Shown here piece after piece: positions 1,192-29,206 of a stretch of DNA of 44,576 nucleotides. A program made the translations under genes and the position numbers. The notes beneath the pieces are model-generated. The model was not told where the DNA came from. It saw nothing but the letters and a program-made list of their open reading frames with translations, and did not search any database. Each line of letters opens with the position of its first letter. Within the stretch, counting starts at the first letter, position 1. Origin of the DNA: Methylococcales bacterium (GTDB taxonomy: Bacteria > Pseudomonadota > Gammaproteobacteria > Methylococcales > Methylomonadaceae); NCBI GenBank assembly GCA_026399095.1, contig JAPLRP010000009.1:1-44576 (forward strand), written 5' to 3'.

Positions 1192-1733
1192 CATTATGAA
1201 GCTGGATTGTGAATAAGGTAGACGTTAAAAAATACGTCATATAACATCTGTAATCGGCTTTACTGATATGCTGAAAAATTGTCACATACTTCATTTTCGA
1301 ATAGAAACATGACGGGGTGTTAAATTTAATGAATTTATTAATGCTTTCCAAGAACTAGAATCTTGTATTAAATTCATAGTATGAATCAAATTCCAGAAGA
1401 TAATTACCCATAAATTTAGCCGCTCAATTTATCGAAAAATAATTACATAACGTATAGATACATTTTCGTTATCAATACCCTTCAAATACTGAAGATATTG
1501 GTACCTCAAAAAACCGATGAAAAAATTAATAATCAGCAAAAAAAACAAGCTTATTTTTATAAAAAAAATCTCAATATAAATGAATTAAATATATTTTTTA
1601 TCTCGATATATAGTATAATTAACCATCAAATTACCTTTTAAGAACTACTTCGAGGTAATTATGAAAAAAGCAAAAACAACACTATTACATTAGCAAAAAA
1701 TATATAACCACTAATATATGAGGTTTTGCCGTC
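1192..1733. other. AT-rich non-coding spacer at end of mobile element
   Basis: About 540 bp, strongly AT-rich with long A and T runs, and no frame with plausible codon structure on either strand. It separates the conjugation genes from the small HTH gene. It may hold promoter or recombination sites of the element, but no convincing site can be named. Confidence 0.6.
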
Positions 1734-1904
1734 ATGATAGAATATAAATATCTAAAGCTAGATGAGGTTCTTGCAATGCTTAATGTTAGCCGCAACTGGT
1801 TTTACAAAATGAGAAAGGCTGGAAAATTTGTTAAACCCGCAATTGAGCGACCAATGCGGTGGAGACTAGACCAAATTAATAATTTTTTGGATGGCGCGGA
1901 GTAA
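1734..1904 (+). CDS. AlpA-like small HTH protein (putative excisionase/regulator)
   Basis: A 56-residue protein starting MIEYKYLKLDEVLAMLNVSR with NWFYKMRKAGKFVKP after it. This is the winged-helix layout of AlpA/HTH_17 excisionase-like proteins: a recognition helix around LNVSRNWFYKMRK, then a wing and RPMRWRLDQINNFL. Such proteins commonly sit beside integrases and promote excision or activate integrase transcription. It lies about 290 bp from the tRNA-Lys gene, which fits the end of an integrated element. No integrase gene is found between it and the tRNA, so the integrase is either at the far end or lost. Too small to assign a precise role. Confidence 0.7.
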   Translation: MIEYKYLKLDEVLAMLNVSRNWFYKMRKAGKFVKPAIERPMRWRLDQINNFLDGAE

Positions 1905-2121
1905 GCAATCCAAACATAAAATAATGAAAACCCAGCGGCAAGTTTTAAAGCCCGAATGACTTGAAATATTGATGATGAATTTGACTCAAAAATAGTAGAA
2001 AATGATGCAGCATTTATATTTGACGAGACAAAGCAATCTCAATAAATAAGCCATGCTAATTCATGCATAAAGGAAAGAGAGAAAGAAAGACAAGATTTTA
2101 TAAACAATACATATTGATTAT

Positions 2122-2144
2122 AAAAGGCACCGCAAAAGGCACCG
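2122..2144 (+). repeat. Two tandem 12-bp units next to the tRNA gene
   Basis: AAAAGGCACCG occurs at 2122-2132 and again at 2134-2144, separated by one base. Its position just inside the putative element end, about 50 bp from the tRNA 3' end, would suit recombinase or excisionase arm-binding sites, but this is only suggestive. Confidence 0.5.
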
Positions 2145-2149
2145 TAAAC

Positions 2150-2183
2150 AAAAAAGCCTTGGAGCTAAAATAGCTACAAGGCC
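2150..2183 (-). terminator. Rho-independent terminator downstream of tRNA-Lys
   Basis: A 12-bp stem: GCCTTGGAGCTA (2156-2167) pairs with TAGCTACAAGGC (2171-2182) with a single mismatch across an AAA loop. Read on the minus strand the stem is followed by TTTTTTG, giving an intrinsic terminator 11 bp past the tRNA 3' end. The other strand also has a weaker T-rich tail, so it may act both ways. Confidence 0.8.
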
Positions 2184-2192
2184 TTATTTTCT

Positions 2193-2268
2193 TGGTGGGG
2201 CGTCCGAGGCTCGAACTCGGGACCCATGGATTAAGAGTCCACTGCTCTACCAACTGAGCTAACACCCC
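2193..2268 (-). tRNA. tRNA-Lys (anticodon CUU)
   Basis: A full cloverleaf on the minus strand. The acceptor arm GGGGTGT pairs with ACGCCCC, the D arm is GCTC/GAGC, the anticodon stem GTGGA/TCCAT carries loop CTCTTAA (anticodon CTT at 2235-2233), the T arm is CCGAG/CTCGG with loop TTCGAGC, and CCA is encoded at 2195-2193. It reads AAG lysine codons. The 3' end points towards the conjugative-element genes, and tRNA 3' ends are the usual attachment sites of tyrosine-recombinase elements, so this tRNA is probably the attB/attR junction. The second att copy is not in the window. Confidence 0.95.
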
Positions 2269-2455
2269 AAATTTTTTACTAAAGAAGCTTTTTAAAAAAA
2301 TTGTTAATTCGCAATTTAACGATCTTTAATTTACGGTGATTATATATTAAATTGTATTGATTATCTTAATAACCTGCATTTATTTTTGTGATGTAAAAAC
2401 CTATCTAATCAAATTAACTTGTGGCGTCTGAATATCACACACATTAATATGTCAT

Positions 2456-3019
2456 CTAAAAGTGTGATAAGACTTCTGGCAGAAAAAATTCACTGACCAG
2501 CATTTGTTTGTGGGCAATATCGTAAACAGTTCGCCTACCCCATATCTGCTGATTTATCGCTACTTCATTAATCGCAGACTTAGTCCATGTGAGCGGGTCA
2601 ATCAAAGTTATATCCATTGCTATACGTTCTAACCTGGGATACGAAAAAATTATTTCACCCAGTGGGCGATTACCCAATCTTGATAAATTGCTTTTAGCTG
2701 TTTTGATGGTGGTTTCTGGAATAATGGTTCTTGCCAAGATAAGTGGTCTGCCATTGATATGCAGCAAAACCTCACGAATTAAGCAATAATGATGCTCGGG
2801 TAACTTAAGTAAACGACGCTCACTTAAAAAAGGGGTATGCCAGTGCTGAAGTAAAACTTTAACAGTGACACCAGTACCGTAAAAACTGCGTAACCGTTGT
2901 GTTAATGAGCCTGACTCATAAGCCCATGACTGAACATTAGCCGGAAGTTTATGGCGCAAACCCTGTCGATTTTCAAGCCATAATGGTTCGCGATTAAATA
3001 AAAAACTTTTCGTAGTCAA
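2456..3019 (-). CDS. ubiC: Chorismate pyruvate-lyase
   Basis: A 187-residue protein that converts chorismate to 4-hydroxybenzoate and pyruvate, the first committed step of ubiquinone biosynthesis. Family hallmarks are visible: QSWAYESGSLTQRLR near the N-terminus, the YCLIREVLLHINGRPLILAR strand pair carrying the conserved arginine, the NRPLGEIIF segment, and the terminal IWGRRTVYDI motif. Length is slightly above the E. coli enzyme (165 aa). The start chosen is a TTG preceded by a GAGG-type ribosome site about 10 nt upstream. It begins 6 bp after the recG stop, so the two are co-transcribed. Three other ubiquinone genes (ubiE, ubiJ, ubiB) lie about 30 kb away in this window. Confidence 0.93.
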   Translation of the reverse strand: MTTKSFLFNREPLWLENRQGLRHKLPANVQSWAYESGSLTQRLRSFYGTGVTVKVLLQHWHTPFLSERRLLKLPEHHYCLIREVLLHINGRPLILARTIIPETTIKTAKSNLSRLGNRPLGEIIFSYPRLERIAMDITLIDPLTWTKSAINEVAINQQIWGRRTVYDIAHKQMLVSEFFLPEVLSHF

Positions 3020-3025
3020 ACTGAA

Positions 3026-5113
3026 CTAAACCTCTGCATAATCTGTGGACGCACCCAACCAACGATTACAAAGCGGCTGAATCGCTTCGGGTGATTGAAC
3101 AACAATTTGCTCAACAACTTCCTGAATAGCATCCAGCAAACCGGCATCTCTGGCTAAATCAGCAATTTTAAAGTTTATAGATCCGGTTTGTCTTGTTCCC
3201 ATTACTTCGCCCGGCCCTCGTAATTCCAGATCTTTTTCAGCTATAACAAAACCGTCATTACTGTCTCTTAAAATACCCAACCGCTGTCGGGCAGTATCCG
3301 ATAAGGGCGATTGATACATCAATAAACAATAACTATCATCCTCACCACGGCCAACACGTCCACGTAATTGATGCAACTGAGAAAGCCCCAAGCGCTCAGG
3401 ATTTTCAATAATCATTAATCCCGCATTAGGCACATCAACACCTACTTCAATTACAGTGGTAGCAACCAATAAATCAATTTGATGATTTTTAAAGGCTTGC
3501 ATGACGACATCCTTGTCTTTGCTTTTCATCCGCCCATGTATTAAGGCAACACGCACATCAGGCAGCGCAATTGTTAGCTGTTCAGCGGTTTTTTCAGCGG
3601 CTTCACACTCCAACACTTCTGACTCTTCTATTAGAGTACACACCCAATAAACCTGTCGCTTTTTGCTAATCCAACTATTGATTCTTTCAATAACATCAGC
3701 CCGCCGTTCAGCGGGAATAACGCTGGTAACAATAGGTTTTCTGCCAGGTGGCAATTCATCAATAATGGATATATCCAAATCTGAATATTGCAACATAGCC
3801 AAAGTACGAGGAATGGGAGTAGCGGTCATAACTAATTGATGAGGCCGAGTATTACCCTTCTGACCTTTTTCTCTCAGAGCCATTCGTTGATGAACCCCAA
3901 AACGGTGCTGTTCATCAATAATAACTAAACCTAACCTATGAAAAGTTACGCTCTCCTGAAATAAGGCATGAGTGCCAATAATAATGCCAGCCGAACCATC
4001 AGCCAAGCTTTGTAAAATGTCTTTTCGAGCATTGCCTTTAATTTGCCCCGTTAAAAAAACAACTTTAGTCTGAAAACCTTCAAACCACACACTGAAATTA
4101 CGTTTATGCTGTTCTGCCAATAACTCAGTAGGCGCCATCACCGCTACCTGATAGCCCGCAGCTAATGCCAGTAATGCCGCATAAGCAGACACAATGGTTT
4201 TACCGGAACCTACATCCCCCTGAACCAATCGCATCATGGGATGTTGCTCGAGGCAATCAGCTTCTATTTCTGCAATAACTCGCTGTTGTGCACCCGTTAA
4301 TTTAAAGGGTAAAGCACTTAAAAACTGTTCAGAAATCGCATTATCAGTGCAAAGTCTAAAAACTGGGGCTTGCCATGCCTTGGTTTTATTTCTACTTATG
4401 CGCAAACTCAAATGATGAGCCAATAACTCTTCAAATGCCAATCGTTTCAGCGCCGGAATACTGCCATTTTGTAATGCCGAAAGTGAAACTGAATCATCAG
4501 GTGCGTGCAGGGTTTGTATTGCCTCTGCCAAAGTCGGATAGCCAAATCTCTTTAAAATCATAGAAGGTATCCAATCTATTAATGAATTGGGTTCACTATT
4601 CCAGACACTTAAAGCCTGCTTGACCGCTTTTCTTAAAATAGTTTGGCTTAGACCTTCTGTTAAAGGGTAAACAGGGGTTAAACGAGTTTGGGTGATATCG
4701 ACATCCGGGTTTAAAATAACCTGATAGTCGGGATGAACCATCTCCAGCCCGCTAAAACCATGCCGCACTTCAGCAAAACAACTGATTAATGTGCCTGGTT
4801 TTAGCCTATTATGTTGATTGGCGCTAAAGTGAAAAAACTTTAAGGTTATATAACCTGTGTCATCGCTGATTCTACAAACCAAGCTTTTACGACCTCTAGG
4901 CAAAATATCTATGTATTCAACCCGACCGCAAATAAGTACTGTCATACCTACCAACAAAGTACCTATTGGATAAACTTTGGTTCGATCTTCGTAGCGTAGC
5001 GGCAAATGAAAAATCAGATCCTGAATAGTTCGGATACCCAGTTTTTCCAAACGATTGAGTGTCTGAAGACCTATGCCTGTTAACTTATCCACCGATTGGC
5101 TAAGGCAACTCAC
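3026..5113 (-). CDS. recG: ATP-dependent DNA helicase RecG
   Basis: A 695-residue protein, close to the usual ~693. It regresses stalled replication forks and branch-migrates Holliday junctions. The N-terminal wedge/OB region opens with LTGIGLQTLNRLEKLGI and DLIFHLPLRYEDRT. The helicase core shows Walker A GDVGSGKT, the DEQH-type Walker B (IIDEQHRFG), MTATPIPRTLA (motif III), TTVIEVGVDVPNA and the QLRGRVGRG motif VI. The start is GTG at 5113, with only a weak ribosome site visible. It sits between ridA and ubiC in one minus-strand run; the ridA-recG adjacency is common in gammaproteobacteria. Confidence 0.97.
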   Translation of the reverse strand: MSCLSQSVDKLTGIGLQTLNRLEKLGIRTIQDLIFHLPLRYEDRTKVYPIGTLLVGMTVLICGRVEYIDILPRGRKSLVCRISDDTGYITLKFFHFSANQHNRLKPGTLISCFAEVRHGFSGLEMVHPDYQVILNPDVDITQTRLTPVYPLTEGLSQTILRKAVKQALSVWNSEPNSLIDWIPSMILKRFGYPTLAEAIQTLHAPDDSVSLSALQNGSIPALKRLAFEELLAHHLSLRISRNKTKAWQAPVFRLCTDNAISEQFLSALPFKLTGAQQRVIAEIEADCLEQHPMMRLVQGDVGSGKTIVSAYAALLALAAGYQVAVMAPTELLAEQHKRNFSVWFEGFQTKVVFLTGQIKGNARKDILQSLADGSAGIIIGTHALFQESVTFHRLGLVIIDEQHRFGVHQRMALREKGQKGNTRPHQLVMTATPIPRTLAMLQYSDLDISIIDELPPGRKPIVTSVIPAERRADVIERINSWISKKRQVYWVCTLIEESEVLECEAAEKTAEQLTIALPDVRVALIHGRMKSKDKDVVMQAFKNHQIDLLVATTVIEVGVDVPNAGLMIIENPERLGLSQLHQLRGRVGRGEDDSYCLLMYQSPLSDTARQRLGILRDSNDGFVIAEKDLELRGPGEVMGTRQTGSINFKIADLARDAGLLDAIQEVVEQIVVQSPEAIQPLCNRWLGASTDYAEV

Positions 5114-18360: not shown

Positions 18361-19218
18361 TTACGCTTCCATAACCACTGCTGCCCTGATCTTTTTCATG
18401 GCATTTTGCTCTAATTGCCTTATTCTCTCAGCAGAGACATTGTAGCGATCTGCTAGTTCATGCAAGGTGGCTTTTTTCTCGGCCAACCAACGACTCGAAA
18501 GAATATCAAAACTTCGCTCATCTAATTCAGCCATGGCTTCTGATAATAAATCCTGCCCATGCCCTTCCCAATCTGCATTTTCCAGCAATATAGATGGATC
18601 GGTTCCATGCTGATGGAGATAGTTTGCAGGATAGGCTCCACTTTCTTCGGCAGATTCATCAACGGGCATATCAAACGACATGTCCTGACAACCCAAACGT
18701 TTTTCCATTTCATAAACGTCACTGAGATCGACATTTAAATCTTCTGCGATAGCCATTGCTTCAGCATTTGATAACCAACCTAAGTCCTGCTTGGATTTAC
18801 GTAAGTTAAAAAACAGTTTACGCTGAGCCTTGGTTGTCGCAACCTTTACGATGCCCCAGTTTTTAATGACATATTCGTGAATTTCAGCCTTAATCCAATG
18901 CACTGCAAAAGAAACCAAGCGAACACCCACATCGGGATCAAAACGTTTAACTGCTTTCATGAGTCCAATATTACCTTCCTGAATAATATCGGGCATAGAC
19001 AAGCCATAACCGCTATAACCTCTGGCCACATGAACGACAAAACGTAAATTGGTCATAACCAATTCTCTTGCCGCTTCCAAATCACCTTCATCTTTATATC
19101 TTAAGGTTAATTCGCGCTCCTGCTCAGAAGTTAATCTAGGCATTTGTCTAACCAGATTTAAATAAGCATCAAACGTTCCAACCGATAAATTAACCGGTAA
19201 AGCCAAAGCATTACTCAT
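18361..19218 (-). CDS. rpoH: RNA polymerase sigma factor RpoH (sigma-32)
   Basis: 285 residues, the usual length. Region 2 shows NLRFVVHVARGYSGYGL, DIIQEGNIGLMKAVKRFDP and RLVSFAVHWIKAEIHEYV. The RpoH box QRKLFFNLR, needed for turnover control and core binding, is present. Region 4 is LADRYNVSAERIRQLEQNAM. Sigma-32 directs heat-shock gene transcription. It follows ftsX on the same strand as in E. coli, but the 78-bp gap contains a perfect CIRCE operator and a probable promoter. A strong AAGGAG ribosome site lies 6 nt before the ATG. Confidence 0.97.
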   Translation of the reverse strand: MSNALALPVNLSVGTFDAYLNLVRQMPRLTSEQERELTLRYKDEGDLEAARELVMTNLRFVVHVARGYSGYGLSMPDIIQEGNIGLMKAVKRFDPDVGVRLVSFAVHWIKAEIHEYVIKNWGIVKVATTKAQRKLFFNLRKSKQDLGWLSNAEAMAIAEDLNVDLSDVYEMEKRLGCQDMSFDMPVDESAEESGAYPANYLHQHGTDPSILLENADWEGHGQDLLSEAMAELDERSFDILSSRWLAEKKATLHELADRYNVSAERIRQLEQNAMKKIRAAVVMEA

Positions 19219-19296: not shown

Positions 19297-20316
19297 TTAT
19301 CCCAGCCTTGTGCGATGAAGCTGACAAACAAGAACGGCCCAAGAACCCAAGACGCCTAGTGCAGAGGAAACAGCAATCAGCACCAGTGTTTCGCTAAAGC
19401 TCAAAAATACTAAATGAAAACTACCCTCATAAAGACCGGAAAGCTTTTCTACCGAACCTCTTAGAATCAACATGACTATTGCAACAATAAACCATGCTGA
19501 TACACCAGCTATAAAACCTATCCAAAAACCACTATATAAAAAAGGCCTCTGAATAAAACCGTTTGTTGCTCCTACCAGTTTAGCGATTACAACCTCCTCT
19601 CTTCGACTATGAAGCTCCAGTCTTATCGTATTACCGATGATAAATAAAACTGCACCGCCCAATAGGACAAATAGTAGGTTAGCAAACAGAAGAGCCAAGG
19701 CCACAATTGATTGAAGTCGTTCAACCCATTGCAAATCCATCTGGGCAAAATCAACTTCGGGAGATTGTTGAAAGCTTTCCATTAGAGTGGTCAGTTTCTG
19801 CTTATCATCCAAGGTGTTTTTAGGCAATACTTCAATAACAACAGGTAAGGGGTTTTTTTCCAGTGCATTAATCGCTGAACCAAAACCACTGTAGGTTTTA
19901 AATTCAGTTAAAGCCTGTTCCTTGGTTATTAACTTAACTTCCTGCACGCCCTCATTTTGCCTAATACTATCGGCTAATTTATTGGCATGCGCATCGGAAA
20001 CATCTTCCCTCAGAAATAAAGAAATCTGATTGCTAGCTTCAAGATTACCGGTTAATTGTTGCAAATTAACGACCAAAATATAAAAACCGCTGGCCAGCGA
20101 AATAGCAATCGCCAAAACAGCGATTGTCATTATGGAAGTAAAAGGGGATGCAACCAAACGCCCCAGACTTGAAAATAATATATGCGCGTGGAGATCTCGA
20201 TAGGCCGTTAATTTATCGAGAAAATTACCACCCGCTGTTTTAGTTTGTCGAGTATCCTGCTTGACAGGTCTAATCGGAGGATCTTTCTTGATACGATTCT
20301 TGTTAATTCGCTTCAT
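19297..20316 (-). CDS. ftsX: Cell division ABC transporter permease FtsX
   Basis: 339 residues. A basic cytoplasmic N-terminus (about 1-55), TM1 (about 62-84), a large periplasmic domain (about 85-205) starting LQQLTGNLEASNQISLFL, then three C-terminal TMs with HSRREEVVIAKLVGATNGFI between TM2 and TM3, the conserved coupling loop. FtsEX transmits ATP hydrolysis across the membrane to activate septal murein hydrolases through EnvC-type partners. Its start lies 3 bp after the ftsE stop. Length and topology are standard for gammaproteobacteria. Confidence 0.95.
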   Translation of the reverse strand: MKRINKNRIKKDPPIRPVKQDTRQTKTAGGNFLDKLTAYRDLHAHILFSSLGRLVASPFTSIMTIAVLAIAISLASGFYILVVNLQQLTGNLEASNQISLFLREDVSDAHANKLADSIRQNEGVQEVKLITKEQALTEFKTYSGFGSAINALEKNPLPVVIEVLPKNTLDDKQKLTTLMESFQQSPEVDFAQMDLQWVERLQSIVALALLFANLLFVLLGGAVLFIIGNTIRLELHSRREEVVIAKLVGATNGFIQRPFLYSGFWIGFIAGVSAWFIVAIVMLILRGSVEKLSGLYEGSFHLVFLSFSETLVLIAVSSALGVLGSWAVLVCQLHRTRLG

Positions 20317-20319
20317 TGC

Positions 20320-20976
20320 TCAACTCGATATCAATTGACCATGATCTAACTTTAATACACGATGGTTTAGTTGTGTGATTAAAGAAATATCATGTGAAGC
20401 AATTAAAACTGTTACACCTACCTGCTGAAACTGGCCAAACAAAAACATAATTTCTTCCGACAAATCAGGATCAAGATTACCTGTAGGTTCATCAGCAATT
20501 ATAATCGGTGGCTTGTTAACCACTGCTCTTGCAATCCCTACCCGCTGTTGCTCTCCACCCGACAAGGCAAATGGATATTTCTTTTCTTTACCATTCAAAC
20601 TTACTTTATCTAACGCCGCTCTTACTCGCCGAGTAATTTCATGATGCCCAAAGCCGGCTATTATTAAAGGTAAAGCAACATTATCAAAAACGGTTCTATC
20701 TTGAAGTAACTTATAATCTTGATATATAAAACCCATTTTTCTTCGTATATAAGGAAGTTGGCTTTCTTTGGTATGACCAATATCTTGCCCATCCAATAAT
20801 ACCTGACCCCGACTACATTTTTCCATAGCCGCAATCAACCTCAACAAAGTACTTTTACCCGCGCCTGAATGGCCGGTAAGAAAAGCTATTTCGCCACGCT
20901 TTAAATGAAAACTGACATTACGCAATACGTCACCTGTCTCAGGATAGCGCTTGCTTACATTAACGAAATTTATCAT
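20320..20976 (-). CDS. ftsE: Cell division ATP-binding protein FtsE
   Basis: A 218-residue ABC ATPase. Walker A GHSGAGKST, Q-loop YQDYKLL, signature LSGGEQQR, Walker B IIIADEPTGNLD and switch His in IASHD. The N-terminus MINFVNVSKRYPETG is typical of FtsE. It forms the FtsEX complex at the divisome. It follows the CtaA-FtsY fusion gene by 6 bp and precedes ftsX by 3 bp, so ftsY, ftsE and ftsX form one tight operon as in E. coli. Confidence 0.96.
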   Translation of the reverse strand: MINFVNVSKRYPETGDVLRNVSFHLKRGEIAFLTGHSGAGKSTLLRLIAAMEKCSRGQVLLDGQDIGHTKESQLPYIRRKMGFIYQDYKLLQDRTVFDNVALPLIIAGFGHHEITRRVRAALDKVSLNGKEKKYPFALSGGEQQRVGIARAVVNKPPIIIADEPTGNLDPDLSEEIMFLFGQFQQVGVTVLIASHDISLITQLNHRVLKLDHGQLISS

Positions 20977-20982
20977 GATAAT

Positions 20983-22929
20983 TTAATCTTTCACAAACAA
21001 GGCATCAACAAATAATTCTGCATCAAAATCTTGTAGATCATCAATACCTTCGCCTATGCCAATAAATCGAATGGGAATGCCCGTGTGTTTTGCCAGCGCA
21101 AAAATAACACCCCCTTTTGCAGTGCCGTCTAATTTGGTTAATACTAAACCCGTTAACGCCACTGTTTCATTAAACAACTTTGCCTGAGAAAGTGCATTTT
21201 GCCCCGTTCCTGCATCCAATACCAGCAACACTTCATGAGGGGCATGTTCATCTAATCGCCCCATAATCCTTTTTACTTTTTTTAACTCATCCATTAAGTT
21301 TGATTTTGTATGCAGTCGACCCGCGGTATCTGCAATCAAAACATCTATACCTTTGGCCTTTGCTGATTGCAGACCATCATAAATAACCGAAGCAGAATCA
21401 GCGCCAGTATGTTGAGCGATCACAGGGATTTTATTACGCTCACCCCAAACTTGCAACTGCTCTACAGCCGCCGCCCTAAAGGTGTCGCCTGCAGCCAACA
21501 TTACACTATGCCCTTGGGCCTGTAAACGCTTGGCTAATTTACCAATCGTTGTAGTTTTACCCGCACCATTAACACCGACGACTAAAATAACAAATGGCGT
21601 ATCTTGTTTTGGTATTTGCAACGGACGACTACAAGGCTGAAGTATCCGGGTTAACTCTTGTTTTAAAGCTAGAGATAAAGCAAATCCATCGGTTAACTGA
21701 TGACGTTCAAGGCTCTTTGTTAGATGACTGATTATTTCTGTTGTTGCATCAATACCCACATCAGCCATTAATAAACTGGCTTCTATTTCTTCTAATAAAT
21801 CACCATTAATTTCTTTTTGGCCAATAGGCAAGCTATCGAGAATACCACTGAGACCTGAACGAGTGCGTTTTAATTGTGACTTTAAGCGTAAATATAAAGA
21901 CTCAGCGGGTGGCTCAATATAAGCTTCTTCAATAGCTTCTACGGATACAGCAACCTGAGCCGTTTCAAGGATGTTTTGCTCAGGTTTAGTTACTATTATC
22001 TCGGGATGTTGTTTTTCCTCAAAGCTAAATCGACTGTAAAAACTGATTGCAATCAAAGGTAACATTAACAGCGCTGCAACTGCATGATGAATCGGAGTTG
22101 CCCAAAAAGGAAACGCCAATTTGGTAGTAATAATGGCCAGTCCAATTTGTACAAACAGCAAAACTCCCAACCACAAACCTGCTGTTCTTACCGATTTTAT
22201 CGAATGGGTTGCTGTTGCGCCAAACATGACTATGCTCAACAGCAGAAAACTGAACAATGCACCGATTCTATGCATCCAATTAGCGACTACCTGAGCATCA
22301 AAGGATATAACACCGGTATAACCAGTCAATAAGCCATTAACAAAATCAAGTGCATTTAGATAATCGGCATTAGGCCACCATTGTCCATTGCATTGAGGAA
22401 AACCATTACAGGCTAAAGCGGCATGATTGGCACTGACCCATGCCCCCAGAATCATTTGAATCAATAAAACAACCATAGCAGCACGTGCAGTATGGATCAG
22501 TCCTTTACGTACTTTTTCTTTTTCGCTGATACAACCTTTTATTGCAGGGTTGGCGAGTAAATACAACCAGTAAAGCGTCCAGAAGGTGATCATACCCAAT
22601 GTGACATGCATTACTATTACAACTGGCATAATCGCTATTGATTTAGCCAAAACCCCTAAGGCAGCCTGTAAAGCAACTAAAATTAACAAACTAACAGAAG
22701 CTACGATTGCGGCCGATCGACAGCGTTGTTGACGCCATGACAACAACCACACCACTAAAATCGATAACCCTAAAGCAGCAGTCAAATAATCATGCCAAGT
22801 ACCCTTTAAAACATCAGCCAAACTTTCACTGAGCAACCCAGCATCAGCACTCCATAGCCTAATGACCGAACCTAAGACTACAATTATCAACGTTAAAAAA
22901 ACGCAAAATAAAGTTAATTTTCTGAACAT
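20983..22929 (-). CDS. ftsY: CtaA/COX15-like membrane domain fused to SRP receptor FtsY
   Basis: 648 residues in one uninterrupted frame. Residues 1-300: an eight-helix CtaA/COX15-like domain. Candidate haem-ligand histidines are His46 (WHDYLT), His108 (MHVTLG), His220 (WMHRIGA) and His281/282; the second cysteine pair Cys174/Cys180 (ACNGFPQC) is kept. The first extracellular cysteine pair is absent, its loop is collapsed, and the catalytic Glu of the usual ExxH motif is Gly43. Residues 301-340: a short acidic linker like an FtsY A domain. Residues 340-648: a complete FtsY NG domain with P-loop GVNGAGKTT (452-460), DTAGRLH (534-540) and TKLDGTAKGG (598-607). No Met codon occurs from residue 290 to 387, so a separate FtsY is not obviously made. 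CtaA termini are cytoplasmic, which places the GTPase correctly. Neighbours are oxidase assembly genes upstream and ftsE-ftsX downstream. Confidence 0.93.
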   Translation of the reverse strand: MFRKLTLFCVFLTLIIVVLGSVIRLWSADAGLLSESLADVLKGTWHDYLTAALGLSILVVWLLSWRQQRCRSAAIVASVSLLILVALQAALGVLAKSIAIMPVVIVMHVTLGMITFWTLYWLYLLANPAIKGCISEKEKVRKGLIHTARAAMVVLLIQMILGAWVSANHAALACNGFPQCNGQWWPNADYLNALDFVNGLLTGYTGVISFDAQVVANWMHRIGALFSFLLLSIVMFGATATHSIKSVRTAGLWLGVLLFVQIGLAIITTKLAFPFWATPIHHAVAALLMLPLIAISFYSRFSFEEKQHPEIIVTKPEQNILETAQVAVSVEAIEEAYIEPPAESLYLRLKSQLKRTRSGLSGILDSLPIGQKEINGDLLEEIEASLLMADVGIDATTEIISHLTKSLERHQLTDGFALSLALKQELTRILQPCSRPLQIPKQDTPFVILVVGVNGAGKTTTIGKLAKRLQAQGHSVMLAAGDTFRAAAVEQLQVWGERNKIPVIAQHTGADSASVIYDGLQSAKAKGIDVLIADTAGRLHTKSNLMDELKKVKRIMGRLDEHAPHEVLLVLDAGTGQNALSQAKLFNETVALTGLVLTKLDGTAKGGVIFALAKHTGIPIRFIGIGEGIDDLQDFDAELFVDALFVKD

Positions 22930-22940
22930 TTAATTTCTCG

Positions 22941-23681
22941 CTAACCAATTTGTGAAATTCTGAGTAGATGCATAAGATCATCTTTTACTTTGTAAGTATC
23001 AAAACCCGCTTCATATTGCATCATGATATTTCCCAGCGGATCTATCAAAAATAACATCCCTTCCGGAATATTGTTTTTCCTGATATCGGTAATTTTTTTT
23101 GCCAATCCAGCACTAGACTTAACTCTAATTAACTCTGATTTAAGGGCAAACTCACGATTTTCGTTAACAATTAACCTGTCTATCAGCTTACTGTCTATTT
23201 TGTTTTCTTCGTGAAGTAAACTCAAAAAAATCGAATTATCTTCCTTATTCTTCGTGTTACGTAATCGCCATAAAAGCGTATCTTTCAACCACCATTCATT
23301 GGCAACGACTTCATTCGGTTCTTTAAAAAGCATCACGACACGACGAGTTCTAGGCAATTCCTTATTTAACATTAGCCTGAGTTGTTTAGTTTTAAGTAAG
23401 GCATCAAGACATACTTCATTACACGCTAAACCCGGGATCACATTAACAATTAACCAATGCCCAACGAGCTCATTCATGTTTTCAGCCGAATACGTGTCAA
23501 AACTTATAAAATCAGTACGTTCGGTTGATATCGGAGGATTTATTAATTGGCCTCTATTGGTCGTTCCTTTTAACAGATTTGGATTTTCTTTTAATCCCCA
23601 AGCGATTAAAAAAGGAATAATGGTCATTCCAAAAATAATTAAAATCAAGCGCCTGTTTTTGTTTTGTTGTTTATTCATCAC
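22941..23681 (-). CDS. SCO/thioredoxin-like oxidase-cluster membrane protein
   Basis: 246 residues: one N-terminal TM (about 11-29), then a periplasmic thioredoxin-like domain with the cysteine pair CNEVC (about residue 89) and the closing IDPLGNIMMQYEAGFD segment. It resembles the poorly characterised membrane protein commonly found between SURF1 and COX15 in gammaproteobacterial cox clusters and is distantly SCO-like. A role in copper delivery or thiol reduction during oxidase assembly is likely but unproven. Its start overlaps the surf1 end by 11 bp, and it lies 11 bp upstream of the CtaA-FtsY gene. Confidence 0.8.
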   Translation of the reverse strand: MMNKQQNKNRRLILIIFGMTIIPFLIAWGLKENPNLLKGTTNRGQLINPPISTERTDFISFDTYSAENMNELVGHWLIVNVIPGLACNEVCLDALLKTKQLRLMLNKELPRTRRVVMLFKEPNEVVANEWWLKDTLLWRLRNTKNKEDNSIFLSLLHEENKIDSKLIDRLIVNENREFALKSELIRVKSSAGLAKKITDIRKNNIPEGMLFLIDPLGNIMMQYEAGFDTYKVKDDLMHLLRISQIG

Positions 23682-24384
23682 TTTTTTTATAGCTATACCA
23701 TAGATATAGTAAAGTTAGGGTAAAGGCCAACGCAAACCATTGGATAGCGTAGGCTGTATGCTGCTCTGGCAACATGATCGTTGTTACCTGCCATTCTCGG
23801 TCATAACCTTCGGGCAGCTCTTTAGCCAGCTCAATCTGAAACGGAAAAATTTTGTATCCCAGTTTATCTGTCAAAACCTGATTGTTGATCAGCTGCACTA
23901 TTGATGGCCAACCCTGGGTTGGAATTTCTGCTCCTGCTAATTTGATACCTACACCCGGAAAACGATTTATCCGGCCTTGAACTTCAGCTTGTTGACTCTT
24001 GATCATTATCTCTGGCAAATTCGATCTATCGTGATTCAAGGGAACCCAACCTCTATTAACTAAAACAGCCTGAGATTCTTCTTCAAAAATAAAGGGTGTA
24101 AAAACAAAATAACCAACTTTGCCGTTTCTAATTTGATTATCCAACAAAAACTGATGCTCCCTGTCATAATGCCCGATTGCCCTTACTTTCTGGTACCTGA
24201 GTTCATCAACATTATATTTACCAGAAGCCGATAACCTTATAAACTCTGGTGAAGCTATACCTTGCTCTTGTTTTTCAAGAATAACTCTTTTTTCTTCAGA
24301 TCGACCTAATTGCCAGAAGCCCAGTGCAATTAACAAGGGTAACAAACATAAATAGGCCAATGTAGGCGCTTTTTTATATCTCAT
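23671..24384 (-). CDS. SURF1 family cytochrome oxidase assembly protein
   Basis: 237 residues with the SURF1 plan: N-terminal TM (about 8-25) ending LGFWQLGRSEEKR, a periplasmic domain with LDNQIRNGKVGYFVFTPF and VLVNRGWVPL, and a C-terminal TM preceded by HTAYAIQWFALAFTL. SURF1 helps haem a insertion into subunit I. It is transcribed with the downstream SCO-like gene, overlapping it by 11 bp. The DUF2909 gene just upstream runs the other way, so surf1 has its own promoter in the 107-bp divergent gap. Confidence 0.93.
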   Translation of the reverse strand: MRYKKAPTLAYLCLLPLLIALGFWQLGRSEEKRVILEKQEQGIASPEFIRLSASGKYNVDELRYQKVRAIGHYDREHQFLLDNQIRNGKVGYFVFTPFIFEEESQAVLVNRGWVPLNHDRSNLPEIMIKSQQAEVQGRINRFPGVGIKLAGAEIPTQGWPSIVQLINNQVLTDKLGYKIFPFQIELAKELPEGYDREWQVTTIMLPEQHTAYAIQWFALAFTLTLLYLWYSYKKSDE

Positions 24385-24828: not shown

Positions 24829-25680
24829 CTACATCAAATAGACAAATATAAACAAACCTAACCATACTACGTCTACAAAATGCCAATACCAGGCAGCTGC
24901 TTCAAAAGCAAAATGATTTTCCGGTTTAAAATGACCTTGAGTGCTTCGGAACAAAACAACGCTTAAAATGATTGCACCAACACAGACATGAAAACCATGA
25001 AAGCCGGTCAACATAAAGAAGGTAGATCCATAAACACCAGAACCTAAAGTTAAACCCATGTCTGTGTATGCTTCATGATATTCAATAGCTTGAAACACGA
25101 CAAACAAAAACCCCAACGCTACAGTCGCTATTAAACCTTTAATCAACTGATCCCTGTTTTTTGCAAGTAAACCATGATGTGCCCAAGTACAAGTCACACC
25201 GCTGGTTAACAGAATCAAGGTATTGAGAAATGGTAAACCCCAAGCGCCCATAGGCTCAAAATCACCACCCACCTTACCGGGGCCATTGGTGGGCCAAGCT
25301 GTTTCAAAAGCAGGCCACAATAATTCTTTAGTTGCTCCTTCACCTAACCAAGGCACAGACAGATTACGTGTGTACCAAAGTGTGCCAAAAAATACCGCGA
25401 AAAACACAATTTCGGAAAATATAAACCACATCATACCGTGCCGATAAGAAATTCCGACTTCGTGGTTGTACATACCAGACTCACTTTCTTTGGCCTGCAA
25501 GGTAAACCAACCTATTAACATGGCAATGAAAACAAGCAGACCTATCACCATCAGGGTCGGACCAATTGATGAACCATTTAAATAATTTGCAAATCCAGCC
25601 AGCATAGTCATCAAACCAACCGTGCCAATGACAGGCCAAGTCGCTTTATGCGGAATGTAATAAGCGGTATTTGTAGACAT
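24829..25680 (-). CDS. Cytochrome c oxidase subunit III
   Basis: 283 residues, seven TM helices: PHKATWPVIGTVGLM at the N-terminus, HGMMWFIFSEIVFFAVFFG, FLNTLILLTSGVTCTWAHH, FQAIEYHEAYTDMGLTLGSG, FFMLTGFHGFHV and AAWYWHFVDVVWLGLFI. It supports proton uptake and stability of the catalytic core. Twelve bp separate it from ctaG, all on the minus strand. Confidence 0.96.
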   Translation of the reverse strand: MSTNTAYYIPHKATWPVIGTVGLMTMLAGFANYLNGSSIGPTLMVIGLLVFIAMLIGWFTLQAKESESGMYNHEVGISYRHGMMWFIFSEIVFFAVFFGTLWYTRNLSVPWLGEGATKELLWPAFETAWPTNGPGKVGGDFEPMGAWGLPFLNTLILLTSGVTCTWAHHGLLAKNRDQLIKGLIATVALGFLFVVFQAIEYHEAYTDMGLTLGSGVYGSTFFMLTGFHGFHVCVGAIILSVVLFRSTQGHFKPENHFAFEAAAWYWHFVDVVWLGLFIFVYLM

Positions 25681-25692
25681 ATCCTTCCCCTT

Positions 25693-26244
25693 TTATTTTT
25701 TTACTGATTTTTCAGTATTATCAAAAAATGTGTATGACAGTGTAATGGTTTTGTATTGCTCAGGTATTTCCGGATTTATAACAAAACGCATCGGCATGAT
25801 TTTCTTTTCTCTGGGCTTGAAAGTTTGCTCAGAGAAACAAAAACACTCAATTTTTTCAAAATAACTGCTGATAACGGCGGGTGAAAAACTGGCAATTGCC
25901 CTGGCAAGCATGACTTTGTCAGTTTTATTTTCCCCATAAAAATTCACTGTGTGATATTCACCCGGATGAACTTTTAATTGTTTTTTTTCGGCGCGAAACT
26001 CCATAGGTGTAGATTCATTCAGGGTTGTCATAAACTCTATGTTAATCTCCCTGTTGATATCTACTTTGTAGGCAGTTTCCGGTACTTTTTTAATGTCATC
26101 AGGACGATCTCGCTCAATCCATTTCCATTCACATAAAACATCGTAAAGTGGTACTAAAGCATAGCCAAAACCAAACATGGTTATGGCGACCAAAAGTAAA
26201 GTTCGCGCTAATTTAAGGTTTTTTTTGTCTACAATCCCGTTCAT
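25693..26244 (-). CDS. ctaG: Cytochrome c oxidase assembly protein CtaG/Cox11
   Basis: 183 residues. One N-terminal TM (about 14-32) with VPLYDVLCEW, then a periplasmic immunoglobulin-like domain with the copper-binding IECFCFSEQ motif and the KIMPMRFVINPEIP stretch. It delivers Cu to the CuB site of subunit I. The start ATG overlaps the stop of the preceding 32-residue reading frame (ATGA), so translation is coupled. Confidence 0.96.
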   Translation of the reverse strand: MNGIVDKKNLKLARTLLLVAITMFGFGYALVPLYDVLCEWKWIERDRPDDIKKVPETAYKVDINREINIEFMTTLNESTPMEFRAEKKQLKVHPGEYHTVNFYGENKTDKVMLARAIASFSPAVISSYFEKIECFCFSEQTFKPREKKIMPMRFVINPEIPEQYKTITLSYTFFDNTEKSVKK

Positions 26245-26388: not shown

Positions 26389-28029
26389 TTAATGTAAATC
26401 CAAAACATGTTCAGTCGGCACGCTAGTCGGTGGTGTCGTCCAAGTATGATAAGGAACTGGTGATGGTAGGGTCCACTCTAAACCATGCTTACTTGCATCT
26501 TCCCAAACTTCATCAGTTACCTTTTCACCCGTACCGCCTCTAATGGTGTCAATAACGATGTATAGAAATAACAATTGACTGGCTCCAAATATAAACCCAC
26601 CAATACTTGAAATCATGTTCCAGTCAGCAAATTGCACTGCATAATCAGGAATTCTGCGAGGCATACCCGCCAACCCTAAAAAGTGCTGAGGAAAAAACAA
26701 AATATTTACAGATATTACTGATAACCAAAAATGCAACTGACCGATTTTTTCGTTATACATATGTCCGGTCCACTTAGGCAACCAAAAATAACCGGCGGCC
26801 ATCAGAATGAAAACCGAGGCAGGAACCAAAGTATAATGAAAGTGAGCAACGATAAAATAAGTATCGTGATACTGAAAATCTGATGGCGCAATAGACATCA
26901 TTAATCCGGTAAATCCGCCCATGGTGAATAGGACAACAAAAGCTATTGAGAACAACATCGGTGTTTCAAAAGTCATTGCACCTTTCCACATGGTCGCTGT
27001 CCAATTAAATACCTTAACACCTGTTGGTACGGCAATAATCATGGTGGCATACATAAAATACAACTCACCGGCAATAGGCATGCCGACAGTGAACATGTGA
27101 TGCGCCCAAACGATGAATGATAAAAATGCAATTGAGGCAGTCGCCCAAACCATTGATGCGTAACCAAACAAAGGCTTACGTGCAAACACTGGAATGATGG
27201 TTGATGCAACACCAAAAGTTGGCAGAATCATGATATAAACTTCCGGATGCCCAAAGAACCAGAAAATATGTTCATATAAGACTGGATCACCGCCGCCCGC
27301 CGCATTAAAAAAGCTGGTATGAAAGAATTTATCAGTTAATAACATGGTAACTGCACCCGCAAATACCGGCATAACAGCAATTAACAAAAACGCAGTAATC
27401 AACCAAGTCCATACAAATAATGGCATATCCATCATTTTCATGGAGGGCGCACGCATATTGAAAATTGTCGCAATAATATTAATCGCACCCATAATGGATG
27501 AAATACCTAATAAATGCACAGAGAATATAGCAAAAGGTAATGCTTTTCCCACAGTAATAGGCTGCAACACAAGCGGTGGATATAGCGTCCATCCGCCATT
27601 AGGTGCCCCACCTTCCATGAATAATGTGCTAGCCAGCAGTAAAACACCCGCAACCAGCATCCAAAAACTCATGTTGTTCATGCGTGGTAGCGCCATATCA
27701 GCCGCACCAATCATTAAGGGTATTTGCCAGTTAGCTAAACCAACAAAGGCAGGCATAACAGCACCAAATACCATAACCAATGCATGCATGGTTGTCATTG
27801 AGTTAAAGAATGCAGGATCTACAAACTGCAATCCAGGCTCAAACAATTCAGCTCTGATAACCATTGCCATTGCACCACCTACAAAAAACATCGTCAGCGC
27901 AAACAATAAATAAAGCGTACCAATATCTTTATGATTAGTAGTGGTAATCCATCTTAACAGCCCCTTGGCAGGACCGTGATCGTGGTGATCATCAGCATGA
28001 TGATCGTGTTCATCGACGACAGCAGACAT
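26389..28029 (-). CDS. Cytochrome c oxidase subunit I (haem-copper oxidase, A1-type)
   Basis: 546 residues, twelve TMs. His82 (TMHALVMVFG) is a low-spin haem ligand; GHPEVYI (His261, Glu263, Tyr265) supplies a CuB ligand, the proton-gate glutamate and the cross-linked tyrosine of A1-type oxidases; VWAHHMFTVG provides the CuB histidine pair, and IVAHFHYTL the haem ligands. It reduces O2 to water with proton pumping. The N-terminal 20 residues are unusually rich in His and Asp (EHDHHADDHHDHG), which could bind metal. It lies 55 bp after cox2. Confidence 0.97.
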   Translation of the reverse strand: MSAVVDEHDHHADDHHDHGPAKGLLRWITTTNHKDIGTLYLLFALTMFFVGGAMAMVIRAELFEPGLQFVDPAFFNSMTTMHALVMVFGAVMPAFVGLANWQIPLMIGAADMALPRMNNMSFWMLVAGVLLLASTLFMEGGAPNGGWTLYPPLVLQPITVGKALPFAIFSVHLLGISSIMGAINIIATIFNMRAPSMKMMDMPLFVWTWLITAFLLIAVMPVFAGAVTMLLTDKFFHTSFFNAAGGGDPVLYEHIFWFFGHPEVYIMILPTFGVASTIIPVFARKPLFGYASMVWATASIAFLSFIVWAHHMFTVGMPIAGELYFMYATMIIAVPTGVKVFNWTATMWKGAMTFETPMLFSIAFVVLFTMGGFTGLMMSIAPSDFQYHDTYFIVAHFHYTLVPASVFILMAAGYFWLPKWTGHMYNEKIGQLHFWLSVISVNILFFPQHFLGLAGMPRRIPDYAVQFADWNMISSIGGFIFGASQLLFLYIVIDTIRGGTGEKVTDEVWEDASKHGLEWTLPSPVPYHTWTTPPTSVPTEHVLDLH

Positions 28030-28084: not shown

Positions 28085-29206
28085 TTAATCATCATCATCG
28101 GGAAGCGCTGTTTGCTTAGGCTGCAATACATCGCCTACTTTATTGCCCAAATTATTACGAACATAAGTCATTAGCTCTGCGTATTCCTTACCATCCAATT
28201 TAGAAAAAGATGGCATTTTAGCTGTGCCGGCGCGTAAGAAGCCATCTAAAGACTCCCACTTTCCAGTTGCTATCGCACTGCCTGTTAAAGCTGGGATTAA
28301 ACCAGGAACGCCAGCACCATTAATCTGGTGGCAACCCACACAATTTTTTAAATAAACCGATTCACCATGGGCCATTAATTGCTCTCGACTTTGATCACTC
28401 AAATCCGGCTTTTGCTTTTGTTGCTCTAAAGTCTTTTTAACCCAAGCATCGTATTCTGGTTGTTCCAGGGCAATAACTACAATAGGCATAAAACCATGGT
28501 CTCGGCCACACAGTTCAGTACATTGACCACGATAAGTGCCTGCTTTGTCCACAGACGTCCAGGCTTCATTAATAAAGCCAGGGTTAGCGTCTTTCTTCCA
28601 ACCTAAATCAGGCACCCACCAAGAGTGAATAACATCCGTTGAAGTCAATACGAAACGAACCTTTTTCTTGACCGGAATCACTAACGGCTTATCAACATTC
28701 AATAAATAATGAGGTACAGAACGTGGATCTGCTCCAACTGTTCTATGAACCCTTTCACTTCCTTCATCCAAATGACTTTCAAAATGAATATCATTATCAA
28801 GGTATTTGTAATCCCAATACCATTGACGACCAGTTACTTGAATGGTCATGTCTGATTTTTCAACATCATTCAATTCCAGCATGGTTTTAGTTGCAGGAAT
28901 AGCCATGGCAACCAAAATTAGTGTTGGAATAACCGTCCAGATAATTTCAACCGTAGTATTTTCATGAAATTGAGCGGCTTCATGCCCTTTTGATTTACGA
29001 TGATGATAAATCGAATAAAACATGGCACCAAAAACACCAACACCTATGACAACACAAATCCATAGAATTAGCATATGGAGGTCATAAATATCATTACTGA
29101 CCTTTGTAACCCCTTTCATTAAATTTAGCGTATAGTCCGCCTGCGCTGTTCCTAGCCCTAAAGCCATTAAGATCAGACCTGCGAATAGTTGCTTTGCATT
29201 GTTCAC
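28085..29206 (-). CDS. Cytochrome c oxidase subunit II with fused cytochrome c domain (caa3-type)
   Basis: 373 residues. Signal peptide (about 1-23), two TM helices, then a cupredoxin domain with CuA ligands His194, Cys229, Glu231, Cys233, His237 and Met240 (QCTELCGRDHGFM). The C-terminus (about 270-355) is a class I cytochrome c with CVGCH (289-293) and a likely methionine ligand at 331 (KMPSF). The fused haem makes this a caa3-type oxidase that can accept electrons from soluble cytochrome c. It ends in an acidic tail (DDDD). First gene of the oxidase cluster. Confidence 0.97.
   Translation of the reverse strand: MNNAKQLFAGLILMALGLGTAQADYTLNLMKGVTKVSNDIYDLHMLILWICVVIGVGVFGAMFYSIYHHRKSKGHEAAQFHENTTVEIIWTVIPTLILVAMAIPATKTMLELNDVEKSDMTIQVTGRQWYWDYKYLDNDIHFESHLDEGSERVHRTVGADPRSVPHYLLNVDKPLVIPVKKKVRFVLTSTDVIHSWWVPDLGWKKDANPGFINEAWTSVDKAGTYRGQCTELCGRDHGFMPIVVIALEQPEYDAWVKKTLEQQKQKPDLSDQSREQLMAHGESVYLKNCVGCHQINGAGVPGLIPALTGSAIATGKWESLDGFLRAGTAKMPSFSKLDGKEYAELMTYVRNNLGNKVGDVLQPKQTALPDDDD

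Follow-up and report, generated by a model that had tools for sequence, protein, structure and literature searches.

Here, we describe a natural fusion of two genes, ctaA::ftsY, on the minus strand of a 44,576-nucleotide stretch of a Methylococcales bacterium (Gammaproteobacteria, family Methylomonadaceae; GenBank assembly GCA_026399095.1, contig JAPLRP010000009.1, positions 1 to 44,576; hereafter the window). One open frame joins an eight-helix domain of the heme A synthase family (CtaA/COX15) to a complete FtsY, the receptor of the signal recognition particle (SRP). We consider it likely that the product is the only SRP receptor of the cell, that it sits permanently in the inner membrane, anchored by a former heme A synthase, and that the fusion arose a single time, through an inversion. 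Bacterial FtsY is usually drawn as a partly cytosolic receptor that binds the membrane reversibly.

The fusion gene and its product

The minus strand at 20983-22929 runs through 648 codons without a stop, and the plus strand of the same interval is full of stops. Pfam places COX15-CtaA at residues 46-290 of the protein (108.4 bits, cut-off 29.9), SRP54_N at 370-426 and SRP54 at 445-645. The NCBIfam equivalog model for FtsY, TIGR00064, scores 364.5 bits, above its cut-off of 260.7, and the Ffh and FlhF models stay below theirs. AlphaFold2 modelled the whole protein (31 rows; mean predicted local distance difference test score (pLDDT) 75, predicted template modelling score (pTM) 0.48) as eight long helices (residues 2-28, 35-64, 71-97, 102-125, 142-167, 210-238, 245-271 and 274-300), a linker of low confidence (pLDDT <50 at 304-337) and the FtsY NG fold; the CtaA part alone (42 rows) reached a pLDDT of 89 and a pTM of 0.90. 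In Foldseek, the heme A synthase structures 6a2j (Bacillus subtilis; TM 0.75) and 8aw5 were the sole matches of the CtaA part with E <0.001, and E. coli FtsY 7o9h (NG+1) was the best match of the full model (TMt 0.93, 61% identity). The FtsY part contains the GTPase motifs GVNGAGKT, DTAGR and TKLDG. Its N-terminal helix, called alphaN1 after that of the E. coli protein, has the columns R348, L349, Q352, L353, T356 and R357 invariant across the 31 aligned rows.

A simple hydropathy scan did not separate the eight segments of the CtaA part individually. Lysine plus arginine counts are 2 at the N terminus and 3, 5 and 1 in the loops between transmembrane (TM) helices TM2-3, TM4-5 and TM6-7 on the inside, against 0, 1, 0 and 1 in the outside loops TM1-2, TM3-4, TM5-6 and TM7-8. 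Both termini of the CtaA part are thus predicted to lie in the cytoplasm, with a cytoplasmic NG domain behind N-terminal TM segments. Because the loop charges fit this location of the termini, FtsY would face SRP. The sequence-only reading of this DNA had recognized an uninterrupted 648-codon gene joining a CtaA/COX15-like domain (residues 1-300) to a complete FtsY (about 340-648). Open frame, Pfam, TIGR00064 and AlphaFold2 agree with that description, on the minus strand, and its domain limits were correct. Its further claim, that cytoplasmic CtaA termini would anchor FtsY permanently, fits the orientation predicted from loop charges.

Only two SRP54-family matches were found in the window genome, a draft of 2.77 Mb in 94 contigs (98.4% complete): the fusion and a protein on contig C16 (G, C and L numbers are our handles for genomes, contigs and loci). 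With 565 bits on the Ffh model TIGR00959 (cut-off 473) and a score below the cut-off of the FtsY model, the latter protein is identified as Ffh. A second ftsY, for which the sequence-only reading had advised looking, is therefore absent from this draft, and the fusion is its only FtsY. CtaA-family matches are likewise two, the fusion with 111.1 bits and a stand-alone CtaA on contig C78 with 191.5 bits.

Probable translation as a single protein

The comparisons drew on 102 fused loci, 63 from genome samples (the window included) and 39 from named genomes, or 88 after removal of sequences at least 97% identical. The distance from H281, near the end of the CtaA part, to R348 in alphaN1 takes 22 different values among the 102, and no stop codon lies inside the fused matches of a search through 61 genomes of the order. 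In 22 pairs, one of which duplicates another, a simple counting method gives a mean ratio of nonsynonymous to synonymous substitution rates (dN/dS) of 0.38-0.40 for the linker and about 0.05 for FtsY. We infer that ctaA::ftsY is translated as a single protein. The sequence-only reading had found no start codon between residues 290 and 387. This stands for ATG and GTG, and no likely internal start is present, but TTG occurs in frame at 292 and 367; the neighbouring in-frame ATG codons are at 289 and 388. By eye, none of these four positions of the window is preceded by a ribosome-site-like sequence.

Two points tell against a single product. The 102 loci were chosen for a long open frame, so that their in-frame state is no independent test, and ATG is common among them at column 289 in helix 8 (84/102) and at column 388 in the N domain (94/102). 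Both columns are ordinary methionine positions of the proteins, although translation may also start there. The gene might yield a separate FtsY as a second product, either from an internal start or through cleavage of the linker, which is disordered in the model. From 20 residues after H281 to 21 after R348, 55 of the 102 loci have an in-frame ATG or GTG, and in 14 an in-frame ATG, GTG or TTG follows a ribosome-site-like sequence. However, at most three of these 14 starts share a place, initiation at 388 would remove alphaN1, and the linker dN/dS is below 1. Together with the lack of such a sequence before the four starts of the window, this makes a second product very unlikely in our view.

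Distribution and single origin

The order sample comprised 61 genomes, including that of the window, from eight families (f1-f8), with 54 genomes in f1-f6 and seven in f7 and f8. The fusion junction was seen in 51 of the 54, with the full frame and no stop in 49 and cut by a contig end in two (G004, G027); in G005, G023 and G024 the contig ends stop short of it. FtsY and CtaA are separate in all seven genomes of f7 and f8, among which G049 has a shortened FtsY match. The fusion therefore occurs in six of the eight families sampled, and the idea of a one-off event was not borne out. That the window belongs to a draft of 94 contigs might suggest a misassembly, or two separate genes joined by an overlooked frameshift. 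The same fusion in the single-contig genomes G019, G039, G054 and G055 and in named isolates, among them Methylobacter luteus, M. tundripaludum SV96 and Methyloglobulus morosus, refutes this explanation, to which we assign next to no probability.

In a tree of 42 FtsY NG domains, the 30 fused ones form one clade (support 98/95), which is present in 97% of bootstrap trees. Because the fused NG domains form one supported clade, a single origin of the fusion is the best reading.

Among the best 80 loci on contigs of named genomes, an FtsY frame follows the CtaA match in 39 and not in 41. The 39 are titled Methylococcales, Methylococcaceae or their genera, except for two that are also fused, L155 (Gammaproteobacteria bacterium) and L161 (uncultured proteobacterium). 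The titles of the named fusion relatives include Methylobacter, Methylomonas, Methyloglobulus, Methylomagnum, Methylovulum, Crenothrix, Methylococcales and Methylococcaceae. In a class sample of 369 genomes (363 matched), fusions occurred, among the matches listed, only in three members of this order, namely the window genome, G308 and G039. Six non-fused matches with long FtsY frames (five >600 codons, one 526) were opened, and all are explained otherwise: the frame runs on over an opposite-strand M16 gene in L218-L221 and consists of a long repetitive N-terminal region in L222 and L223. M16a adjoins ftsY in five of these six loci, and L223 shows only rsmD. No paper on a CtaA-FtsY fusion was found in the open-licence PubMed Central (PMC) literature, judged from search listings. 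CtaA-CtaB fusions and anchored FtsYs are already known.

Two single sequences deserve mention. The fused frame of L131 (a Methylomonas sp. metagenome-assembled genome) has 564 residues with its start out of register, perhaps through a draft frameshift in the CtaA part. A 33%-identity match at G040:C88:12421-13350, presumably Ffh, is crossed by three stops (2 TGA, 1 TAG).

Probable origin by inversion

Unfused relatives preserve what appears to be the arrangement before the fusion. In five of the six that were fetched (L057-L061), the cox genes, surf1, a gene x, ctaA and ctaB face rpoH-ftsX-ftsE-ftsY; in the sixth, G042, the two parts are on separate contigs (L062, L063). Beyond ftsY and divergent from it follow M16a-M16b-rsmD (L057, L059, L061, L062), and M16a is the divergent neighbour of ftsY, together with M16b, in all 12 class loci L206-L217. 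The class outgroup L215 also has cox..ctaB convergent with rpoH..ftsY; no ctaA was seen there. The fused f6 loci L046, L047, L049 and L050 read cox..x-ctaA::ftsY-ftsE-ftsX-rpoH, followed by an oppositely oriented ctaB and by M16a-M16b, which is the unfused order with the block from ctaB to ftsY turned in place. In the window genome, ctaB stands head to head with M16a-M16b-rsmD on contig C58 (L071) and encodes a full-length heme O synthase (TIGR01473 323 bits, cut-off 210). This ctaB|M16a junction marks the other end of that inversion and has survived a later rearrangement.

The sequence-only reading had instead proposed a deletion that removed the end of ctaA, ctaB and the start of ftsY. We reject this model because ctaB is intact elsewhere in the genome and gene orders reveal both sides of the inversion. 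Less favourable to an inversion is that ctaB lies beside the block in only four of 21 annotated fused loci and is absent from the examined stretch in the other 17, the window included. In f3, rpoH has moved (L048, L051).

Six unfused CtaAs end a few residues past helix 8, which the fusion keeps. The FtsYs of five f7 genomes and of L057 (f8) start with MFGFGKKK, which the fusion lacks, and the five f7 frames have just 24-34 residues ahead of the RLxxxL of the first helix. Unfused members of the order (f7; L057 of f8) thus already have short N-terminal regions, which rules out a loss of the A domain through fusion; the earlier idea that the fusion had shrunk it comes down to the missing MFGFGKKK-like start.

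We propose that in the ancestor of the six families an inversion flipped a ctaB-(..)-rpoH-ftsX-ftsE-ftsY block that faced the cox-ctaA operon. The breakpoint would have cut both genes, ctaA in its final codons and ftsY in its first ones, and therefore ctaA would have lost its stop and ftsY its start together with the MFGFGKKK-like helix (alphaA1). As a result, ftsY, ftsE and ftsX would have become the tail of the cytochrome oxidase operon.

Decay of the catalytic half

The columns of the B. subtilis heme-b ligands H216 and H278 hold H220 and H281 in the window protein (Table 1). According to PMC7327177, the C bundle of heme A synthase holds heme B and the N bundle the substrate. Each of 13 unfused CtaAs of the order has all ten compared columns intact, and we read changes in the N half of fused proteins as losses because these unfused copies are intact. 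The N-bundle columns are kept unevenly among the 102 fused loci (Glu in 32, H46 in 83, H108 in 71, the first-loop cysteines in 57), and the complete Glu-His-His set is intact in 28 of the 88 non-redundant homologues. The window protein has Gly in the Glu column, its first periplasmic loop is deleted together with the cysteine pair, which is not universal within the heme A synthase family, and only positions 81-319 of the COX15-CtaA profile are matched. The C-bundle residues C174, C180, H220, R221 and H281 are present in 102 of 102.

A tree of 86 rows (27 intact, 59 decayed in the N half) requires 10 state changes, of which well supported branches force at least eight. Rates were compared in 21 non-overlapping close pairs (7 intact, 13 decayed, one mixed), whose shared history makes the p values a guide. 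N-half dN/dS was 0.04-0.12 in the intact and 0.14-0.45 in the decayed pairs, without overlap (Mann-Whitney p 2.6e-5), and 0.19 in the mixed pair. For the C half, dN/dS was somewhat higher in decayed than in intact pairs (0.132 vs 0.076, p 0.008); for FtsY it did not differ (p 0.59). Selection on the catalytic half is relaxed in the decayed lineages. The anchor is probably a dead heme A synthase, and the window fusion would have lost heme A synthesis. From the conserved heme-ligand residues, it probably still binds heme b.

Several observations do not sit easily with this reading. The window protein retains both N-half histidines, H46 and H108, and CtaAs with substitutions of E57 or H123 are listed for other bacteria in PMC8239418. 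Six more fused frames were opened, in genomes picked for low scores or single matches, and five keep the C-bundle set (L229 repeats L112). The sixth, L232 (G554, 1495-3321), is the most degenerate fusion, a 608-residue frame in which the Arg and the loop with both cysteines are gone, whereas hydrophobic segments persist ahead of FtsY; both ligand columns hold His, in a region of weak alignment. Its membrane part is not among the PF02628 matches of G554, the only one of which is the stand-alone gene. Because of L232, retention of the C-half set is not strictly universal.

The CtaA half could alternatively still make heme A in the window species while the FtsY half receives SRP. Such a bifunctional enzyme would suit the homologues with an intact Glu-His-His set, the four genomes described below whose fused CtaA is the only one found, and the two histidines retained in the window protein. 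We hold it to be unlikely, given the Gly and the missing loop of the window protein, its restricted Pfam match and the higher score of the stand-alone CtaA. A working heme A synthase half is thus not supported in this lineage, in which catalytic-half residues are lost and another CtaA is present.

A dead synthase could also be a frozen accident, a passenger that is tolerated and kept only for membrane insertion, its heme b binding without present role; it could not be lost since the essential ftsY lies behind it. The roughly 10 changes between intact and decayed N halves, the raised N-half and slightly raised C-half dN/dS in decayed pairs, and the retention of hydrophobic segments in G554 after loss of the cysteine loop would all be expected. 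A mere anchor, however, would need neither two heme ligands nor a cysteine pair, and these are kept in all 102 loci and in five of the six further ones (one a repeat of a locus among the 102); even L232 has both ligand histidines. We therefore regard an idle passenger as possible but doubtful, and favour an anchor that probably still binds heme b.

In the order samples, most fused genomes contain at least two CtaA matches. Among those with a completeness of 90% or more, no other CtaA was found in G040, G544, G561 and G578, and all four have the full catalytic set; in G506 (83% complete) the set looks intact by eye. In genus g302 (genomes of 1.5-2.3 Mb), the fused CtaA of L112, L113 and L120 is the only one found and has the full catalytic set. 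We propose that the fused CtaA would stay intact where it is the only heme A synthase, and that with a second CtaA present its substrate-binding, catalytic N bundle would decay repeatedly, the genus of the window included. The heme-b-binding C bundle would be kept, probably since heme b and bundle form the stable core of the anchor. Some genomes speak against this scheme. In G050 (85% complete), G007 (65%) and G011 (75%) the catalytic half has decayed although no second CtaA was found, which breaks any strict rule tying decay to such a copy, all three being less than 90% complete; G561, one of the g302 genomes, keeps the full catalytic set though no COX1 was found in it. Activity of the second CtaA is moreover only assumed, because all 10 second copies compared carry Asn at the H60 column; they also lack the second cysteine pair. 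This pattern resembles type 1.3 in the table of PMC8239418.

Gene neighbourhood

The oxidase cluster abuts ftsE-ftsX-rpoH exactly at the fusion (Table 1), as the sequence-only reading had it. The C-terminal motif of CoxB suggests a caa3-like oxidase. The fusion starts 11 bases after the preceding gene and is followed by ftsE after 6 bases. A promoter and terminator scan of the window gave site counts no higher than in shuffled sequences, and the minus strand from coxB to ftsE has just two weak terminator-like sites, at 27088-27066 (inside coxA) and 24727-24715 (in the gap between coxC and surf1). The ftsY-ftsE-ftsX genes probably share transcripts with the oxidase genes. Five f4 loci (L040, L041, L043, L044, L045) keep surf1, the PA0111-like gene and ctaA::ftsY without coxA in the stretch examined; they look as if the fusion had kept ctaA from following the oxidase genes when these were relocated or disappeared.

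Table 1 Features of the fusion gene, its neighbourhood and the stand-alone CtaA
Feature	Location	Strand	Basis
ctaA::ftsY fusion gene, 648 codons + stop	20983..22929	-	open frame, Pfam, NCBIfam
CtaA/COX15-like domain, residues 1-303, eight predicted TM helices	22021..22929	-	PF02628, AlphaFold2, Foldseek
Residue 43, Gly in the catalytic Glu column of heme A synthases (B. subtilis E57)	22801..22803	-	
His46, N-half (substrate heme) histidine column; His in 83/102	22792..22794	-	
His108, N-half histidine column; His in 71/102	22606..22608	-	
Cysteine pair in the TM5-6 loop, Cys174 to Cys180; each kept in 102/102	22390..22410	-	
His220-Arg221, first heme-b ligand column and neighbour; invariant 102/102	22267..22272	-	
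His281, second heme-b ligand column; invariant 102/102	22087..22089	-	
Acidic linker, residues 304-341, mostly pLDDT <50, without ATG/GTG codon	21907..22020	-	
FtsY part, residues 342-648: N-terminal helix (alphaN1), N domain, G domain	20986..21906	-	TIGR00064, Foldseek
rpoH, part of the inverted block	18361..19218	-	TIGR02392 391.6 bits, cut-off 323.1
ftsX	19297..20316	-	TIGR00439 333.7 bits, cut-off 255
ftsE, 6 bases downstream of the fusion stop	20320..20976	-	TIGR02673 287.6 bits, cut-off 264.85
PA0111-like protein, between surf1 and ctaA::ftsY	22941..23681	-	NF058629 36.8 bits, far below cut-off 230; no Pfam match
surf1	23671..24384	-	only SURF1-type exception model, 102.6 bits, cut-off 190
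coxC, cytochrome oxidase subunit III	24829..25680	-	subunit III models, all below cut-offs
ctaG/cox11	25693..26244	-	NF003465 195.8 bits, cut-off 162
coxA, cytochrome c oxidase subunit I	26389..28029	-	TIGR02891 676.9 bits, cut-off 670.75
coxB, subunit II, C-terminal CVGCH motif	28085..29206	-	TIGR02866 192.5 bits, cut-off 147.7; motif from sequence
Stand-alone CtaA	G000:C78:13143-14030 (L001 1429-2421)		

Discussion

If translated as encoded, the SRP receptor of six families cannot leave the membrane, and the need for receptor cycling becomes testable in cultured bacteria. A chance inversion can bind an essential gene to an enzyme, which then cannot be lost but only emptied; here one enzyme half dies repeatedly while the heme-binding half stays. 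The event also placed ftsY-ftsE-ftsX behind the cytochrome oxidase operon. For annotation, a CtaA match in these bacteria is often not a heme A synthase, a warning that concerns a methanotroph group used in methane biotechnology.

Anchored FtsY has been studied with laboratory constructs. According to PMC5533587, alphaA1 provides the first, non-activating membrane contact of FtsY and alphaN1 the active contact after SRP binding; FtsY-d14 or FtsY-NG fused to a TM helix rescues growth, tethered FtsY NG/NG+1 is functional and keeps its selectivity, and tethered FtsY without alphaN1 targets promiscuously and harms cells. FtsY-NG fused to an unrelated membrane protein works as well (Zelazny 1997, as cited in PMC2780400 and PMC5533587). 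We read ctaA::ftsY as a tethered receptor with intact gating because a TM anchor would replace alphaA1 and alphaN1 is kept, as in the working constructs. The anchor would take over the first, non-activating membrane contact of alphaA1. SRP binding could still switch the receptor to its active state through the retained alphaN1, so that cargo selection would survive.

It is tempting to go further and propose that in most families of the order the receptor is a hemoprotein, in which the C bundle binds heme b and makes FtsY a membrane oligomer, by analogy with the Aquifex heme A synthase trimer and its C-bundle core. Co-translational insertion would then be physically coupled to the membranes of respiration and methane monooxygenase, and the supply of heme or the redox state might couple the two as well. 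We consider this extension improbable. The window genome matches PF02461, the subunit-A family of methane/ammonia monooxygenases; that the fusion helps insert methane monooxygenase into the membrane is speculation. The permanently anchored sole receptor, with its former heme A synthase as membrane part, remains our preferred reading, and it can be compared with known systems on both sides of the fusion.

E. coli FtsY (TIGR00064; PDB 2yhs, 2qy9, 7o9h) shares the complete NG domain with alphaN1, but has a long acidic A domain with alphaA1 and binds the membrane reversibly, where the fusion has an eight-helix domain and a linker. FtsY of Streptomyces lividans differs from the fusion in having a short hydrophobic alphaA1 motif and no eight-helix enzyme domain. 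This natural receptor is mentioned in PMC5533587 for an N-terminal membrane motif of greater hydrophobicity. Laboratory FtsY-TM fusions (3L-Pf3 in PMC5533587; Zelazny et al. 1997 as cited there) also place alphaN1-NG behind an unrelated N-terminal membrane segment and are functional in E. coli; unlike these, ctaA::ftsY is natural, is common to six families and is anchored by what used to be an enzyme, whose heme-ligand residues are conserved. Heme A synthase CtaA/Cox15 (PF02628; PDB 6a2j, 8aw5) has the same eight-helix fold with the heme-b ligand and second-loop cysteine columns, whereas the CtaA domain of the window lineage is fused to FtsY and has lost both the catalytic Glu and the cysteine-bearing first loop. 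In CtaA-CtaB fusions of other bacteria, as described in PMC8239418 and PMC9145763, ctaA is also fused to another gene, but the partner there is the preceding enzyme of heme A synthesis and the two form an obvious functional pair.

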